IMG/VR virus record: IMGVR_UViG_3300044695_008713
Coordinates: 1-27,638 of that record
Direction: 5' to 3' (one strand)
Length of the DNA stretch: 27,638 nucleotides
Origin: a virus
Part shown: in pieces, positions 3,473-27,638 of the stretch
Layout: each line of letters begins with the position of its first letter
Numbering within the stretch: position 1 is the first letter of the stretch
The notes under the pieces: model-generated
Database searches by the model: none
What the model saw: the letters and a program-made list of their open reading frames with translations, nothing else
Told to the model about the DNA's origin: nothing
Position numbers and translations under genes: made by a program

Positions 3473-4685
3473 ACGCTTGATCCCCTACGCCCGCAATGCG
3501 CGGACACACGCGGATGAACAGATCAGCCAGATTGCGGGCAGCATTGCGGAGTTCGGCTTTGTGAACCCGATTCTTATCGGGGATGACAACGTCATCATCG
3601 CTGGGCATGGGCGCTTGATGGCTGCGCAGCGATTGGGCTTGCCGACAGTGCCAGTGATTATGCTGGCGCATCTCAGTGAAACCCAGCGGCGGGCACTGGT
3701 CATTGCCGATAACAAAATCGCCGAAAACGCAGGCTGGGACGAAGAGATGCTCCGCATTGAGTTGCAAGCCCTTCGGGAAGCGGATTTTGATCTGGACATT
3801 ACGGGGTTTGATTTTGAGGATATCGACAGGCTTCTGAACGGTGAATCGGCTGAAAACCAACCTCTTACCGACGATGACGCCGCCCCTGAAGTTCAAGAAA
3901 ACCCGATATCGCAGCCCGGTGACCTGTGGTTGCTCGGTGATCACCGTGTGCTTTGCGGCTCGGCCACGGTGTTGGCGGATCTGGAAAAGGTTATGAACGG
4001 CCAACTGGCCGACATGGTCTTTACCGATCCGCCCTACAACGTGGATTATGGCAATACGGCAAAAGATAAAATCCGGGCCAAAGGCGGCAAAAAAGCGGGC
4101 CGCACCATCATGAACGATAACCTCGGTGAGGGATTCGAGCAGTTTTTGTACGATGCCTGCGTCAATTTTCTCTTGGTCTGCAAGGGTGCGGTGTATGTGT
4201 GCATGAGTTCCAGCGAGCTGGACACGCTGCAATCTGCCTTTCGCAAGGCAGGCGGCAAATGGTCAACCTTCGTCATCTGGGCGAAAAATACCTTCACGCT
4301 GGGACGCTCTGATTACCAGCGGCAGTATGAGCCGATTTTGTATGGCTGGAAGGAAGGCGCAGAGCATTTCTGGTGCGGCGCACGCGATCAAGGCGACGTC
4401 TGGTTTTTTAACAAACCCCAGAAAAACGATCTGCACCCCACCATGAAGCCGGTGGAACTGGTGGAACGGGCGGTGCGTAATTCCAGCAAGACGCGTGACA
4501 TCGTGCTCGATCCGTTCGGCGGTTCTGGTTCTACCCTTATCGCTTGTGAAAAAACCGGGCGGCAGTCGCGGCTGATTGAACTTGATCCCCGCTATGTCGA
4601 CGTGATTGTGAAGCGGTGGCAGGATTTTACGGGGAAAACGGCGATCCGCGAAGACGGAACGCCGTTTTCTTCCGGGTCACTTTAG
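3438..4685 (+). CDS. ParB-domain DNA methyltransferase (N6-adenine/N4-cytosine type)
   Basis: 415 residues in two parts. Residues 1-95 form a ParB/sulfiredoxin-like N-domain (LIPYARNARTH, GFVNPILI, IIAGHGR). From about 155 comes a beta-class N6/N4 methyltransferase with motif IV DPPYNVDYG (197-205) and AdoMet motif DPFGGSGST (358-366) at the C-terminal end. DPPY favours adenine over cytosine as substrate. Such fusions are common in phages and mobile elements and are orphan modifiers without a restriction partner; none is seen here. The start at 3438 lies 3 nt after the upstream stop with AGG at 3428-3430; the extended frame from 3399 only reads through the previous gene. Confidence 0.88.
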   Translation: MNDLHIQQYPLERLIPYARNARTHADEQISQIAGSIAEFGFVNPILIGDDNVIIAGHGRLMAAQRLGLPTVPVIMLAHLSETQRRALVIADNKIAENAGWDEEMLRIELQALREADFDLDITGFDFEDIDRLLNGESAENQPLTDDDAAPEVQENPISQPGDLWLLGDHRVLCGSATVLADLEKVMNGQLADMVFTDPPYNVDYGNTAKDKIRAKGGKKAGRTIMNDNLGEGFEQFLYDACVNFLLVCKGAVYVCMSSSELDTLQSAFRKAGGKWSTFVIWAKNTFTLGRSDYQRQYEPILYGWKEGAEHFWCGARDQGDVWFFNKPQKNDLHPTMKPVELVERAVRNSSKTRDIVLDPFGGSGSTLIACEKTGRQSRLIELDPRYVDVIVKRWQDFTGKTAIREDGTPFSSGSL

Positions 4686-10716: not shown

Positions 10717-11091
10717 ATGCCTGCTTTAAACGAATCGAATTATCTCGGCGATTTCCTGAAATACGAAGCGCCGAACCTGTTTTCTAGGGAAAACGCAGTG
10801 ATCGGCACAGGGGCCAACTTAACCCTGGGGGCTGTTCTGGGACGCATCACGGCAACGGGGAAGTATGTTCTGCTCGCCCCGGCCGCCGTGGATGGCAGCC
10901 AGACGGCGGCGGCGATTTTGCTGGCGGATGCCGCTGCGGCTACAGCGGATGTTAAGGGCCTCATTCTCGCCCGCCATGGCATTGTCGCCGATCACGGCCT
11001 TGTTTGGCCAGGCAGTGCCACACTGGCGCAAAAAAATACGGCCATTTCACAACTGGAAACCAAGGGCATTCTTGTCCGTAAAGGAGTGTGA
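10717..11091 (+). CDS. Head decoration protein, lambda gpD family
   Basis: 124 residues, near lambda gpD length (110). Visible family features are an N-terminal arm (LNESNYLGDFLKYEAPNLFSRE), GTGANLTLGAVLGRIT, and a C-terminal strand segment with LILARHGIVADHGLVW. gpD-type trimers cap the expanded capsid and stabilise it. AAGGAG (10703-10708) overlaps the upstream stop. In lambda the capsid gene follows directly; here a 404-bp element separates them. Confidence 0.85.
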   Translation: MPALNESNYLGDFLKYEAPNLFSRENAVIGTGANLTLGAVLGRITATGKYVLLAPAAVDGSQTAAAILLADAAAATADVKGLILARHGIVADHGLVWPGSATLAQKNTAISQLETKGILVRKGV

Positions 11092-11094
11092 GGA

Positions 11095-11498
11095 AGGTTT
11101 TAGGGTGTAGGGTTTAGGGGGTAGAAAGTTTGAGGCGCAGTGTGTGCAGCATTTTTTGTACCTCTTCAATCAGCAGAAACAATTTTGTGCAATTTTCGCG
11201 CTCTGCATACCGCAACCGCAGGCAGATCAACATCTGCGTTTCCACTTCGGCCAACGATCCGATAGCGATGGAAAGAAACCGAACATAGTCCTTATCCCCT
11301 GTTCTTGAATGGCCTTCCGCGATGTTGGAGGGCACCGAAACAACCGCTCGGCGCAGCTGCACCACCAAGCCAAATTTCTCCTCGGCAGGAAACCGTGATG
11401 TCAGACGATACACATCCTCCACCAAATCCATGGATTTTTGCCAAACAATCAAGTCTTTGTAATTTTTAATCATCACTACACCCTACACCCTAAAACCT
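11095..11498. mobile_element. 404-bp element with 19-bp perfect inverted ends carrying a four-helix-bundle ORF
   Basis: The left end AGGTTTTAGGGTGTAGGGT (11095-11113) is repeated exactly in inverse orientation at 11480-11498. Further G-rich units (TTTAGGGGGTAG, TTGGAGG) extend the likeness. The only gene inside is on the minus strand, against the late operon. Related G-rich repeats occur without the gene at three other places in the window. Mobility is inferred from structure; no target duplication was identified. Confidence 0.6.
11114..11473 (-). CDS. Four-helix-bundle protein, 23S rRNA intervening-sequence (S23/IVP) family
   Basis: 119 residues from ATG 11473 (a GTG one codon upstream is also possible). 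The family signature is plain: YKDLIVWQKSMDLVEDVYRL, FPAEEKFGLVVQLRRAVVSV, SNIAEGHSRTGDKDYVRFL and GSLAEVETQM. Members fold as pentameric four-helix bundles, are often encoded within intervening sequences of 23S rRNA genes or as scattered orphans, and have unclear function; the distant relative Avd acts with retroelement reverse transcriptases. Both gene ends lie in the inverted repeats, which encode the last residues (STP) and the start region. There is no reverse transcriptase nearby. Confidence 0.88.
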   Translation of the reverse strand: MIKNYKDLIVWQKSMDLVEDVYRLTSRFPAEEKFGLVVQLRRAVVSVPSNIAEGHSRTGDKDYVRFLSIAIGSLAEVETQMLICLRLRYAERENCTKLFLLIEEVQKMLHTLRLKLSTP

Positions 11499-11517
11499 CC
11501 AACCTCAAGGAATCACC

Positions 11518-12522
11518 ATGCAAAACCCGTTTCAAAACCCCGCCTTCAGCATGACCAGCCTGACGTCGGCCATCAATATCTTGCCCAATACCTACGGGCG
11601 CTTGGAACAATTGAACCTGATGCCCCCCAATCCGGTGCGGTTTCGGGCCATTACCGTTGAAGAGCAGAATGGCGTTTTAAACCTGCTGCCCACGGCGGTG
11701 CTGGGATCCCCTGGGACGCTGGGCAAGCGCGGCAAACGCACCGTGCGCTCGTTCACCGTGCCCCACATTCCCCATGACGATGTGGTGTTGCCCGAAGAAA
11801 TTCAGGGCATCCGCGCCTTTGGGTCGGAAGACACCACCCGCGCCTATGCGGATGTCTTGGCCACGCATTTGCAGAATATGCGCAACAAGCATGCCATCAC
11901 GCTGGAGTATCTCCGCATGGGCGCTCTTAAAGGCGTGATTCTCGATGCGGATAGCTCGACGCTGTTTGACCTTTACACGGAGTTTGGCATCACCGCTAAA
12001 TCCGTCAACTTTCAGCTGGGCACGGCGACCACGGACGTCAAAAAGAAATGCCTTGAGGTCATTCGCCACGTCGAGGACAATCTGAAAGGCGAGGTCATGA
12101 CCCGCGTCCATGCCTTGGTAAGCGCGGAGTTTTTCGATGCCCTGACCAGTCATCCGTTGGTCAAAGAAGCCTATCAACGCTGGCAGGACGGCGCGGCGTT
12201 GCGGGACGATATGCGCTCTGGGTTCCCTTTCGGCGGCATGATGTTTGAGGAGTATCGCGGCGTAGCCACCGATGCCGACGGCAACGTGCGGCGGTTTATT
12301 GCCGCGAACGAGGGGCATTGTTTCCCCATCGGCACGCTGGGGACGTTCACCACGTATTTCGCGCCGGCTGATTTTAATGAGACGGCCAACACCCTGGGGC
12401 AACCGCTCTACGCTAAACAGGAACCCCGCAAGTTTGAACGCGGGACGGATCTGCACACCCAGAGCAATCCCCTGCCCATGTGTTTGCGTCCCGCCGTTTT
12501 GGTCAAATTGACGAACACGTAA
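11518..12522 (+). CDS. Major capsid protein, lambda gpE family
   Basis: 334 residues, near lambda gpE (341). Recognisable features are the N-terminal TSLTSAINILPNTYGRLEQL, VEEQNGVLNLLPT, the FTVPHIPHDDVVLPEEIQGI segment, and the C-terminal QPLYAKQEPRKFERGTDLH followed by NPLPMCLRP. It forms the icosahedral shell with the decoration protein. AAGGA at 11507-11511 gives the start. The S23 element ends 19 bp upstream, leaving the capsid ribosome site intact. Confidence 0.92.
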   Translation: MQNPFQNPAFSMTSLTSAINILPNTYGRLEQLNLMPPNPVRFRAITVEEQNGVLNLLPTAVLGSPGTLGKRGKRTVRSFTVPHIPHDDVVLPEEIQGIRAFGSEDTTRAYADVLATHLQNMRNKHAITLEYLRMGALKGVILDADSSTLFDLYTEFGITAKSVNFQLGTATTDVKKKCLEVIRHVEDNLKGEVMTRVHALVSAEFFDALTSHPLVKEAYQRWQDGAALRDDMRSGFPFGGMMFEEYRGVATDADGNVRRFIAANEGHCFPIGTLGTFTTYFAPADFNETANTLGQPLYAKQEPRKFERGTDLHTQSNPLPMCLRPAVLVKLTNT

Positions 12523-19799: not shown

Positions 19800-20224
19800 A
19801 CCGCGCTGATATTGTGATTGAAGCCCGTTCGTGGCTGGGCACGCCGTATCATCATCAGGCCGCGCTGAAAGGCGTAGGCTGTGACTGTATCGGTTTACTG
19901 CGCGGGATTTATGAGGCGTTTCTCACGCCGCTGAAAGTAGACATCAACTACTCGCCGCACTGGCATTTCCACCGTGCGGAAGAGGTGCTCTACGCCCACG
20001 TCTGCCAGTACGCCGAAGAAATCCCGTTGGAATCGGCCAGCATTGGCGATGTGCTGTTGTTCGGCTTTGGCACGGGGCCAGCGGCGCACGCAGGCATCAT
20101 CGCCAGTACGGACACCATTATCCATGCCTATGCTGAAATCGGCAAGGTGGCGGAAACGCGGCTTTCTAACAAATGGCTGGCCCGCCGCCGTTTTGCCTTT
20201 CGTTTTCCAGGGCTTGAGGACTGA
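19796..20224 (+). CDS. NlpC/P60 cell-wall peptidase of the tail tip (GTA g14-like)
   Basis: 142 residues. WLGTPYHHQAALKGVGCDCIGLLRGIYE carries the catalytic Cys31 (DCxGL), and AAHAGIIAS carries His98; the enzyme cleaves peptidoglycan peptides during DNA entry. Size and neighbours match GTA g14 and lambda gpK. No separate endolysin appears in this window, but this protein is expected to be part of the particle rather than a lysis enzyme. Confidence 0.88.
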   Translation: MNRADIVIEARSWLGTPYHHQAALKGVGCDCIGLLRGIYEAFLTPLKVDINYSPHWHFHRAEEVLYAHVCQYAEEIPLESASIGDVLLFGFGTGPAAHAGIIASTDTIIHAYAEIGKVAETRLSNKWLARRRFAFRFPGLED

Positions 20225-20841
20225 TGGCTCAGTTAGCCCTCGCTGGGGCTGGGGCACTGGTCGGAAGTGCCTTTGGTGCGCCGTACCTGGGCTTTGCGCT
20301 GGGTTCTCTGCTGGGTGGTGTTCTGTTTCCGCAAGACGGCCCACCGGATCAAATCCAAGAAGGGCCGCGCCTGCATGACCTGAAAGTGCAATCCTCCGCC
20401 CACGGCACGATGCTGCCGCTGGTGTACGGCACGGTGCGGATTGCCGGCAACGTCATCTGGGCGGCAGACCTCGAAGAACAGGTGGTCACGGAAACCAACT
20501 CCGGCAACGGCGGTAAAGGCGGCGGCGGATCGGTGACCAGCACCACCCGCACCTATATCTATTTCGCCAGCTTCGCCGTGGGGCTGTGCGACGGACCGAT
20601 TGCCTCTGTGAATCGGGTATGGGCCAACGGCAAATTAGTGCACGATGCCAGCAGCAGTTTGCTGGATATGATGGTGTATCTCGGAAACGAAACACAATCC
20701 CCTGATGATCGCATCGAAAGTGCGCTGGGTGTTGGTTTCGTGCCTGCTTATCGGGGCATGGCTTACGCTGTCATTAACCGCCTCAACCTTACCGATTACG
20801 GCAACCAGATTCCCAATTTGCACTTCGAGGTCACGGCGTAA
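20224..20841 (+). CDS. Megatron/tail-hub N-terminal domain as a free-standing protein (GTA g15-like, split)
   Basis: 205 residues. A hydrophobic Gly/Ala-rich start is followed by QEGPRLHDLKVQSSAHGTMLPLVYG and RIAGNVIWAADL, then a Gly-rich loop, FAVGLCDGPIASVNRVWANG and YGNQIPNLHFEV. This is the standard N-domain of the large GTA g15-like tail protein, which normally continues without a break into the region found here at 23588. The protein stops right after the N-domain, so the large gene has been divided. It abuts a paralogous N-domain (1-nt overlap). Confidence 0.82.
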   Translation: MAQLALAGAGALVGSAFGAPYLGFALGSLLGGVLFPQDGPPDQIQEGPRLHDLKVQSSAHGTMLPLVYGTVRIAGNVIWAADLEEQVVTETNSGNGGKGGGGSVTSTTRTYIYFASFAVGLCDGPIASVNRVWANGKLVHDASSSLLDMMVYLGNETQSPDDRIESALGVGFVPAYRGMAYAVINRLNLTDYGNQIPNLHFEVTA

Positions 20842-22472
20842 TGGCGATGCTGGTACTCGGTGCCGCAGGCGCAGGCATGGGATCAGGCTTCGCCATGGCG
20901 GGGCTTGGTTTAGGCATTGCCGCCGCCGTGGGCGCATTCAGCGCGGCGGGGAGTTTGCCCAACGCCGATGCCTATCAGGTGGGACCGCGCCTGGAAGATT
21001 TGAAAGCTCAATCCTCAGCGCACGGGGCAATGATTCCGCTGGTGTACGGCATCACCCGCGTGGCGGGAAATGTCATTTGGTCAACCGAAATCACCGCCAC
21101 ATCGGAAAACGTGCTGGTGGGCACCACGGTGATTGAGGGCGGCAAGAGCGGGCGAACCCAACCTGTCTACCAAACGCGGGAATTTTATGTGGCCAGTTTC
21201 GCCGTTTCGTTCGCCAATACGCTGGCGTTAGAAGAGGAAGGCAGCGCACGGGAAAGCTTCGAGGATGAGGACGAACTGACCTTCAAACGCCGCCAAGGCA
21301 TCTCGGCGATGCGGCGCATCTGGATGAACCGCAATCTGGTGTATGACTTTCGCGCCAACAATCGCGGCGTGAATGGCCGTGATTTGAATGTGGAGATTTA
21401 CCTCGGCGGCGAAGAGCAAGCCCCCGATGAATTGATCGAAAGCCTTGAAGGCATAGGCTTAACGCCCGCCTACCGTGACCATGCCTATCTGCGGTTCGAT
21501 ACGATTGACCTTTCGCGTTATGGCAACCGTCTGCCCAACGTGGAAGCGGAAGTCATCGACACCCTGGGGCGTGTGTTTACCGAAGAAGGACCCCACGGCC
21601 TCGCCGAAGGGCTGGATGGCGATATCTATGTGGTGAACCGCCTGCAACGCACCGTCACACGGATTGACGGCACAACGTTTCAGGTCAAAGCAACGATTGG
21701 CCGCAGCAACGCGGAGTATTTGGGGTCACTGGACGCACAGCCCGTGCGGACGGCAATCAGCCCCGTGGACAGCCACCTATGGGTGACGTGCCATGCCAAC
21801 AACACCGTGCAGCGCATGAATCCTGCGACAAACGCGATCATTTCCACTGTCAACACAGGGATTTACCCGTGGGGCGTCAAAGTTGCTGCCGATGGTTTTG
21901 TCTGGATCACCTGCCCGTGGGTGGATCTCGTGCAGAAAATCAATCCTGCCACGGGCAGCGTTGTTGCCAGCTATACGGTGGCCGAATGCCCCACCGAAAT
22001 GGCTTTCGGTCTTGACGGCGATCTGTGGGTGACGATCAATGAGGGCGTCGTGCGCCTGAACGCAAGCACGGGGGCGGTCAAAGCCACAATTCCCCTAGGC
22101 TTCTTCCCTTGGGGCATCGCTGTTAATCCCGTTAACGGCTTTGTCTGGGTAGTGGTGAACGGCCAAGACATCCTGCAAGTCATCAACCCCGCCACCAACA
22201 CCATCACCAAAACGCTGAACCATGGCACGGGCGCCATGGATGTCAGCATTCATCCGCTTGATCCTTACGGCATCGTCTGGTCAACCAGCTACGGCGGCAA
22301 CAGGGTGCGTTCTTACAGCCCAAAGGAAGGCTTTGCCAAAGACGGCGGGTATCTCTCGCTCATTCAGTACGGCACGGTGGCCTTTCCGGAGCAGGTGCTG
22401 GCATTGAGAGATGGGCGGTTTGTCGTGACGCAAACGAAATACGATTTTGTGCTCATTGGTGAAGGCTACTGA
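20841..22472 (+). CDS. Second megatron N-domain fused to a Vgb/NHL-like beta-propeller
   Basis: 543 residues. Residues 1-239 parallel the upstream protein: GPRLEDLKAQSSAHGAMIPLVYG, RVAGNVIWSTEI, FYVASFAVSF, RRIWMNRNLVYD and YGNRLPNVEAEV. From about 245 to the end, six or seven propeller blades follow with the pattern W-G-(I/V)-x-V...VWVT...VQRxNPATNAI, as in virginiamycin B lyase/NHL-type propellers. Propellers at tail tips usually bind receptors or glycans; lyase activity is not implied. The duplication plus fusion is unusual. Confidence 0.8.
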   Translation: MAMLVLGAAGAGMGSGFAMAGLGLGIAAAVGAFSAAGSLPNADAYQVGPRLEDLKAQSSAHGAMIPLVYGITRVAGNVIWSTEITATSENVLVGTTVIEGGKSGRTQPVYQTREFYVASFAVSFANTLALEEEGSARESFEDEDELTFKRRQGISAMRRIWMNRNLVYDFRANNRGVNGRDLNVEIYLGGEEQAPDELIESLEGIGLTPAYRDHAYLRFDTIDLSRYGNRLPNVEAEVIDTLGRVFTEEGPHGLAEGLDGDIYVVNRLQRTVTRIDGTTFQVKATIGRSNAEYLGSLDAQPVRTAISPVDSHLWVTCHANNTVQRMNPATNAIISTVNTGIYPWGVKVAADGFVWITCPWVDLVQKINPATGSVVASYTVAECPTEMAFGLDGDLWVTINEGVVRLNASTGAVKATIPLGFFPWGIAVNPVNGFVWVVVNGQDILQVINPATNTITKTLNHGTGAMDVSIHPLDPYGIVWSTSYGGNRVRSYSPKEGFAKDGGYLSLIQYGTVAFPEQVLALRDGRFVVTQTKYDFVLIGEGY

Positions 22473-26441: not shown

Positions 26442-26633
26442 ATGAACGCCGACATTTCCAACGAATCCGAACACCTACCCATTCACGTCGCCAAGTGCGA
26501 GGAACGCTACAAGATGCTGGAAATGCGGCTCTCTCGCCTTGAACGCGCGCTCTATTGGATTGCCGCTGTGCTGATGACGGGCATGGCGACCATCATTTTT
26601 AAACTGTTTTTATTGGTACAGGAGATTGGCTGA
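26442..26633 (+). CDS. Small membrane protein, XhlA/holin-like
   Basis: 63 residues: an N-terminal charged coiled-coil ([22 protein letters not shown]) followed by one membrane span ([22 protein letters not shown]). This is the layout of XhlA-type haemolysin/holin-accessory proteins. GGAG upstream supports the start. Placed at the end of the late operon as expected for lysis. Its last 35 nt overlap the convergent arsenite permease gene. Confidence 0.68.
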
Positions 26634-27638
26634 AACGGTGCTGGGTGCGTTTCGCAACCCCCACAAGCCAAAGCATGACTGGCACTTCTACCAGCACCCC
26701 CACCACCGTTGCTAATGCCGCGCCAGAGTTAAGCCCAAACAGGCTGATGGCAACGGCCACCGCCAGCTCAAAGAAATTTGAACTGCTGATCAGCGCAGCG
26801 GGGGCGGCAATGCTGTGCGGGATGTGCGCTTTACACATCCAGACATAAGCAAGCGTAAACATCAGCACACTTTGCAGCAGAATGGGCACAGCAATCATGC
26901 CAATCACCAGCGGCTTTTGTAGCAGAGTTTCGGCCTGAAAGCCAAACAGTAGAACCACGGTGGCCAGTAAGCCCAGCACGGAATATGGTTTGAGATGGTG
27001 CAAAAAAGAAGACAGCCGCTGCTCACTATGCGCCAGCAGTTTCTTGCGCGTTAAGTATCCCGCGATAATCGGCGTTACTACGTATAACGCCATTGAAAGC
27101 ACCAGTGTTTCCCACGGCACTGCAATATCTGCAACCCCTAGCAGCAGCGAGGCAATCGGTGCATAGGCAAAAATCATGATGATATTGTTGAGTGCCACCT
27201 GCACCAATGTATAGGCCGCATTGCCGCCCACTAAACGGCTCCACACAAACACCATCGCCGTGCACGGCGCGGTGCCCAGCAAAATTAAGCCCGCCACATA
27301 CTGCTTAGCATCTTCGGGGGTAATACTTGAGGCAAAAATATGCTGAAGAAACACAACACCGAGTGCCGCCATGGAAAACGGCATCACCAGCCATGTCACC
27401 ACAAAACTGATGGCGAAGGCTTTTGGTTTCTTAAGAGCATCGCCAATCCTTGAAAAATCAACATTCACCATCATCGGGAAAATCATCACCCACACCAGCA
27501 CCGCTACAACCAGATTCACGCTGGCGTATTCCAAATGGGCAATGGCTTGGAAAACACCCGGAATCAGATGACCCAGCCCCACACCTGCGGCAATGGCGAT
27601 GGCAATCCACACCGAAAGATAGCGTTCAAAATAACCAA
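26599..27638 (-). CDS. acr3: ACR3-type arsenite efflux permease, 5'-truncated by window edge
   Basis: The frame is open to the right edge; the first in-window residues [18 protein letters not shown] match the usual N-terminus of ACR3 permeases, so only a few codons are missing. About ten membrane spans are visible, with the conserved [10 protein letters not shown] carrying the Cys required for As(III) transport, and [14 protein letters not shown] near the end. It exports arsenite using the proton gradient. The core ends near TQHRF; the last ten residues ([10 protein letters not shown]) are encoded inside the phage holin-like gene. It is either host DNA at the prophage edge or a carried gene; no other ars gene is in view. 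Confidence 0.88.

Follow-up and report, generated by a model that had tools for sequence, protein, structure and literature searches.

A heptamer-armed S23 hairpin element, probably mobile, between the decoration and capsid genes of a phage resembling WO

Between the head decoration and major capsid genes of a phage resembling Wolbachia phage WO lies a short segment in which an S23 gene sits within inverted arrays of degenerate heptamers. Our reading, to which we give a probability of roughly two in three, is that this segment is one copy of a mobile hairpin element like the intervening sequences (IVSs) of rRNA, and that it was recently inserted at the junction between the D and E genes. It belongs to an IMG/VR virus record of 27,638 nucleotides, the whole of which is called the window here; the capsid protein is 75-76% identical to the capsids of phage WO, the nearest named phages. 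To our knowledge, genes for S23 four-helix bundles occur commonly in genomes, and no function has been agreed for them. Suspicions that 23S intervening sequences are remnants of mobility go back to the 1990s, and descriptions of heptameric repeats have appeared several times with no owner assigned to them. The features of the junction are listed below.

10717-11091, plus strand: head decoration protein of the lambda gpD family (PF02924, E 8e-41)
11081-11087, plus strand: AAGGAGT, left half of a possible imperfect 7-nt target duplication (direct reading and junction alignment)
11088-11511, no strand: inserted DNA, approximate extent (alignment against the empty relatives L003, L005, L006, L009 and L036)
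11095-11129, plus strand: left arm, five degenerate heptamers AGGTTTT AGGGTGT AGGGTTT AGGGGGT AGAAAGT (sequence, inverted-repeat search)
11114-11476, minus strand: S23/IVP four-helix-bundle gene, intact (PF05635, TIGR02436, PDB homologues)
11476-11505, plus strand: right arm, inverted heptamer copy (sequence, inverted-repeat search, RNA fold)
11507-11513, plus strand: AAGGAAT, right half of the possible imperfect duplication (direct reading, empty-allele comparison)
11518-12522, plus strand: major capsid protein of the gpE family, intact downstream of the insert (PF03864, E 2.5e-119)

A preliminary description of this DNA had placed an S23/IVP open reading frame antisense to the late operon, between the gpD-type and gpE-type genes, with perfect 19-bp inverted repeats overlapping its start and stop regions, and these elements were all recovered. 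The frame has 120 codons from a GTG at 11476, with an ATG at 11473. Its product scores 135.5 bits against PF05635 (23S_rRNA_IVP; cut-off 33.8) and 127 bits against TIGR02436 (cut-off 24), which makes it a member of the family; sequence relatives in the PDB are 2gsc (XCC0516) and 2rld, and a single-sequence AlphaFold model reached a pLDDT of 66. The perfect repeat pairs 11095-11113 with 11480-11498, where about 0.001 such pairs are expected by chance in a random sequence of 27.6 kb (n^2/2/4^19), and it extends to 23 nt with 96% complementarity (11095-11117 and 11476-11498). The left arm contains the S23 stop codon. The right arm, which reads AGGTTGG AGGTTTT AGGGTGT AGGGTGT on the minus strand, overlaps the S23 start and places a G-rich leader before the gene. 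As had also been proposed, the late-operon transcript is predicted to fold into a long stem, with the two arms at its base (plus-strand fold against shuffles, z -6.2; 0/100 shuffles). The earlier account of the ends was right about the inverted repeats; it missed that they are heptamer arrays and that they have non-coding siblings.

S23 is the only gene in the 0.4-kb insert, which encodes no transposase, and the insert protein matched only 23S_rRNA_IVP and bAvd, with no match to the Y1 HUH transposase domain. No sigma-70-like promoter for S23 was found in the sequence, and an Rfam search of the insert region returned nothing meaningful.

Elsewhere in the window, the adjacent frames at 20224-20841 and 20841-22472 share a similar N-terminal part (QIQEGPRLHDLKVQSSAHGTMLPLVYGTVRIAGNVIW and YQVGPRLEDLKAQSSAHGAMIPLVYGITRVAGNVIW), apparently through tandem duplication of a tail-assembly gene, and in the second a Vgb-lyase-like beta-propeller follows. 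A transporter of the sodium/bile-acid-symporter family (PF01758) lies on the opposite strand at 26599-27612, at the right end of the record, and is probably host DNA next to a prophage, or cargo.

The case for insertion comes from a comparison of the D-E junction among the best capsid relatives of the window in IMG/VR. Besides the window, the junction is filled in L002 and L008 (the latter being the same contig as L082), and it is empty in L003, L005, L006, L009, L036, L007, L035 and L065. The first five of the empty relatives are 97-100% identical to the window in D and about 97% in E, and their D-E gap is 5 nt, compared with 426 nt in the window. Empty sites in relatives had been named beforehand as a check on mobility; they are present in close relatives, and the element is not fixed. 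More distant capsid relatives have short D-E gaps, and none of them carries S23 at the junction. The stop codon of the decoration gene (TGA, 11089-11091) lies at the left edge of the insert; empty relatives read GGAGTCTAA/GGAGTATAA at this place. The ribosome-binding site of E is AAGGAGT in empty relatives, and in the filled allele AAGGAAT serves instead.

Between the window and L008, the element differs at 15 positions in 363 nt (96% identity), compared with 83% identity in the flanking phage DNA, and 14 of the 15 differences are synonymous and one is nonsynonymous. Taken together, the empty alleles, the higher identity of the element and the 14:1 synonymous excess mark it as a recent, selected insertion, and the substitution pattern shows strong purifying selection on the phage S23.

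How the element came to be shared by these phages is a separate matter. Because all three phage copies occupy one site, transposition of the window copy is not directly observed, and same-site spread between phages could be homologous recombination. There is a nearly even chance that the element transposed here no more than once, as a one-off insertion that homologous recombination through D and E then carried from one WO-like phage to another. Phage genomes recombine readily, and the flanks of L002 form a mosaic, partly of the L008 type and partly of the window type, which favours this history. However, the flanks of the window and L008 are lineage-specific up to about 4-10 nt from the element on both sides, so very short recombination tracts would be needed. 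This alternative also concerns the spread of the element and not its nature. A search of IMG/VR with the exact ends brought up only the two relatives with the same site.

Target duplications, which the preliminary description had suggested seeking, did not appear in clean form. The AAGGAGT/AAGGAAT pair around the window insert is imperfect and known from one site only, and no consistent duplication was found across this site and a second phage site, in L376. The latter provides another comparison of filled and empty alleles, with L378, L379 and L385 empty. Insertion in L376 was at the start of the terminase gene, where the upstream gene lost its end and the terminase its N-terminus, and a new terminase ATG abuts the arm. 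The junction was thus replaced, and there is therefore no simple target duplication.

Replacement of the L376 junction, along with the lack of a transposase, would suit retromobility, in which S23, as a relative of Avd, would act together with a reverse transcriptase that the host supplies in trans, and RNA of the hairpin would be copied into DNA at gene junctions without target duplications. A weak similarity of the S23 protein to bAvd (E 1.8e-4) and to the Avd profile NF033474 (24.3 bits) leans the same way. Since the Avd score lies far below its cut-off of 80 and no reverse transcriptase was present among the 15 window proteins scanned, we consider this route improbable.

Other hairpins and inserts were seen at or near this junction. 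Strong GC-rich hairpins of other kinds lie between the decoration and capsid genes of L010-L013, L030 and L079. In L035 the major capsid gene is broken by a MITE-like insert of 126 nt (4243-4369), which has 17-bp near-perfect terminal inverted repeats (CAGGGCGATTGCATTAG and CTAATGCGATTGCCCTG) and an apparent 10-bp duplication (GTTCACCGTG).

Among viruses, S23 is rare: 33 loci in 2.9 million IMG/VR contigs at the sensitivity used, and no match among INPHARED phages by tblastn at E 1e-5. Matches on plasmids were mostly cyanobacterial. Arms are present at most of the viral loci, frequently inside late operons. The cassette adjoins the large terminase gene in L332 and L352, lies between tail and terminase genes in L336 and between the tail terminator and head-tail adaptor in L340, and adjoins minor tail or major head genes in L346 and L347. 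Among loci whose two neighbours are co-directional, S23 is antisense at 12 of 13 in viruses (from L331-L352) and at 12 of 75 in genomes (Fisher p=1.5e-7), a count that is approximate because neighbours were called by open reading frame length. In general, cassettes are mostly sense in bacterial operons and mostly antisense in phage operons. At the head-tail-adaptor junction of relatives of L340 (L364, L369, L370 and L371), unrelated non-coding hairpin repeats stand where some phages have S23 cassettes, with nested heptamer arms in L370 and L371.

The heptamer arms extend well beyond viruses. The window S23 protein was used to recruit 80 genome loci from many bacterial phyla and some archaea, and the S23 genes at these loci are flanked by inverted heptamer arrays. 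The mean autocorrelation over 100 nt on each side of S23 in this set shows an excess at lag 7 of +0.13 upstream and +0.11 downstream, with lag 14 likewise in excess and other lags near 0; at 703 flanks of other open reading frames in the same loci the lag-7 value is +0.001. Separate samples (whole-genome sets, one order) repeat the signal on both sides, within a range of +0.06 to +0.13. In a test on 123 redundancy-filtered S23 genes, each arm was matched to its own partner and to swapped partners, and the own-partner match exceeded the 99th percentile of swapped pairs in 68 of the 123 (p=5e-52). These two analyses replaced a lag-7 test on single 35-nt windows against a 99% cut-off, which was weak, as tandem repeats are present in some of the control flanks too. 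The G-rich arm is 5' of the S23 gene in 67 of 70 cases. Heptamer arms are thus a family-wide trait of S23 genes, with some genes lacking recognisable arms.

The suggestion that the element type is mobile and reaches beyond rRNA genes is supported by the empty alleles and by these surveys, which place cassettes built in this way between genes at many other sites in phages and bacteria. Signature words of 23S rRNA were absent from all fetched loci, so that the new copies do not appear to include any rRNA IVS. S23 copy number reaches 23 in one Anaerolineales genome, and S23 is present in 59 of 60 genomes of the genus of Chryseobacterium indologenes, to which G003 belongs. Stop codons interrupt some of the copies, which fits a repeat whose copies come and go.

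Cassette-bearing genomes also hold dispersed non-coding inverted pairs of the cassette heptamer. Thiobacillus genomes with a TCAGG-armed cassette contain many further arrays of the same heptamer, and a reversed control pattern gave zero matches in them. Of 20 dispersed array sites that were fetched, most are about 95-135 nt long and consist of two inverted arms around a small palindromic loop, without S23. The median number of TCAGG arrays per genome is 56 where S23 is TCAGG-armed (n=13), 7 where it has other arms (n=16) and 5 where S23 is absent (n=24), figures that ignore kinship and to which the arms of the cassette itself add a few. A second order shows reciprocal specificity, in that the S23 arm heptamer of each genome predicts its dispersed array: GGGAATC or GGGATTC arrays occur only in G072 and G092, and GAGTGGT arrays only in G030. 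In G072 the cassette arms are GGGAATC, which has 94 pattern matches genome-wide.

At one Thiobacillus site, the junction between the E1b and E2 genes of pyruvate dehydrogenase (PDH), the occupant varies: S23 cassettes whose heptamer differs by species, short inverted arrays that are non-coding, or hairpins of other kinds. Inverted arrays of the TCCGCGAAGGACGCGAAG type, with a longer unit, lie at this junction in L282, L290 and L294-L296 and are perhaps a sister repeat family.

The main rival to our reading starts from such junctions and takes the hairpin as the functional unit and S23 as a passenger. Operon junctions would then select intercistronic hairpins, for mRNA processing or protection from decay, which would arise repeatedly by repeat insertion. 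Cassettes alternate with unrelated non-coding hairpins at the PDH junction and likewise at the phage head-tail-adaptor junction, several relatives of the window carry other D-E hairpins, and the authors who studied the Coxiella burnetii IVS judged the RNA to be more important than the S23 protein (PMC4990558). A passenger would not be expected to show the strong purifying selection seen on the phage S23, or to go together with its arm heptamer genome by genome, and most of the phages closely related to the window do well with no hairpin between D and E. We regard the passenger account as unlikely, though less so than retromobility.

If the segment is instead a mobile hairpin element, as we favour, insertion antisense to the late operon would leave D, E and the ribosome-binding site of E usable. 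The arms would pair in the operon transcript, and the stem may be trimmed by RNase III as in rRNA IVSs, which would let both neighbours be expressed and the insertion be tolerated. The G-rich 5' arm may act as a leader for S23. The S23 protein, a natural candidate for the arm-binding factor, may recognise the arms and promote the upkeep or copying of the hairpin family; the S23 gene would be the long coding form, and the short inverted pairs its non-coding siblings.

A broader proposal, which we put forward tentatively and at somewhat less than even odds, is that S23/IVP genes define a widespread and unrecognised mobile class. Its members would be heptamer-armed hairpins, long ones encoding S23 and short non-coding ones. 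They would settle at gene junctions in chromosomes and phages and in rRNA genes, and an S23 protein specific for the arms would maintain and spread them without a conventional transposase. If this is true, the 23S IVSs belong to one system with the heptameric repeats that stand as orphans in Xanthomonas, Thiobacillus and elsewhere. The comparison joins S23 genes, 23S intervening sequences and heptameric repeats with statistics, and it adds empty and filled alleles, a visible non-coding sibling family and the testable prediction that S23 recognises heptamer hairpins. In the open literature, heptamers have been noted for Coxiella and arrays in several genomes; we found no paper that links S23 generally to heptamer arms or dispersed siblings.

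Among known systems, several share part of this anatomy. Heptameric G-rich repeats have been described in Xanthomonas (GGGAATC) and Nostoc, with 70-75 inverted pairs per Xanthomonas genome, by authors who did not tie the arrays to S23 and found generally no association with mobile elements (PMC4692102); the same GGGAATC forms the S23 cassette arms of G072. Diversity-generating retroelement (DGR) proteins of the Avd/bAvd type belong to the same broad four-helix-bundle superfamily, going by weak profile similarity, but S23 falls far below the Avd cut-offs and the scanned window proteins include no reverse transcriptase. IS elements and transposons share terminal inverted repeats with the window element, which differs from them in encoding no transposase. 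In RAYT/REPIN systems, inverted hairpin repeats enclose the gene, and the same genome carries the repeat in dispersed inverted pairs that are non-coding (PMC3116915, PMC2817692), a layout also found in the bacterial relatives of the window cassette. Unlike RAYT, S23 is a four-helix bundle without a known nuclease motif or Y1 HUH domain, and its repeats are heptamer arrays, not the REP palindromes of REPINs. By analogy, the cassette anatomy resembles RAYT/REPIN or transposon/MITE pairs, with the S23 protein in what would be the transposase's place.

The 23S IVS of Coxiella burnetii has an S23 open reading frame and inverted ends, with two to three copies of the heptamer GACAGAT in tandem, and it is cut in vitro by RNase III near the first repeat (PMC4990558). 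The window element is similar in its S23 frame of about 120 codons, its length of about 400-430 nt, its inverted terminal arms, the tandem heptamers at the S23 start and its patchy distribution, and it has the stem-forming complementary termini of a 23S IVS (23-nt arms, predicted fold). It differs in lying in a phage protein operon between gpD and gpE and not in rRNA, and in having S23 antisense to the late operon, where the Coxiella gene is sense in the host transcript. The window element is thus a member of the S23 family that is not itself a 23S IVS, an ordinary transposon, a RAYT or a DGR. The Coxiella IVS would fit as an rRNA-located example of the same element type, and the window element may work like an IVS set in a phage mRNA operon.
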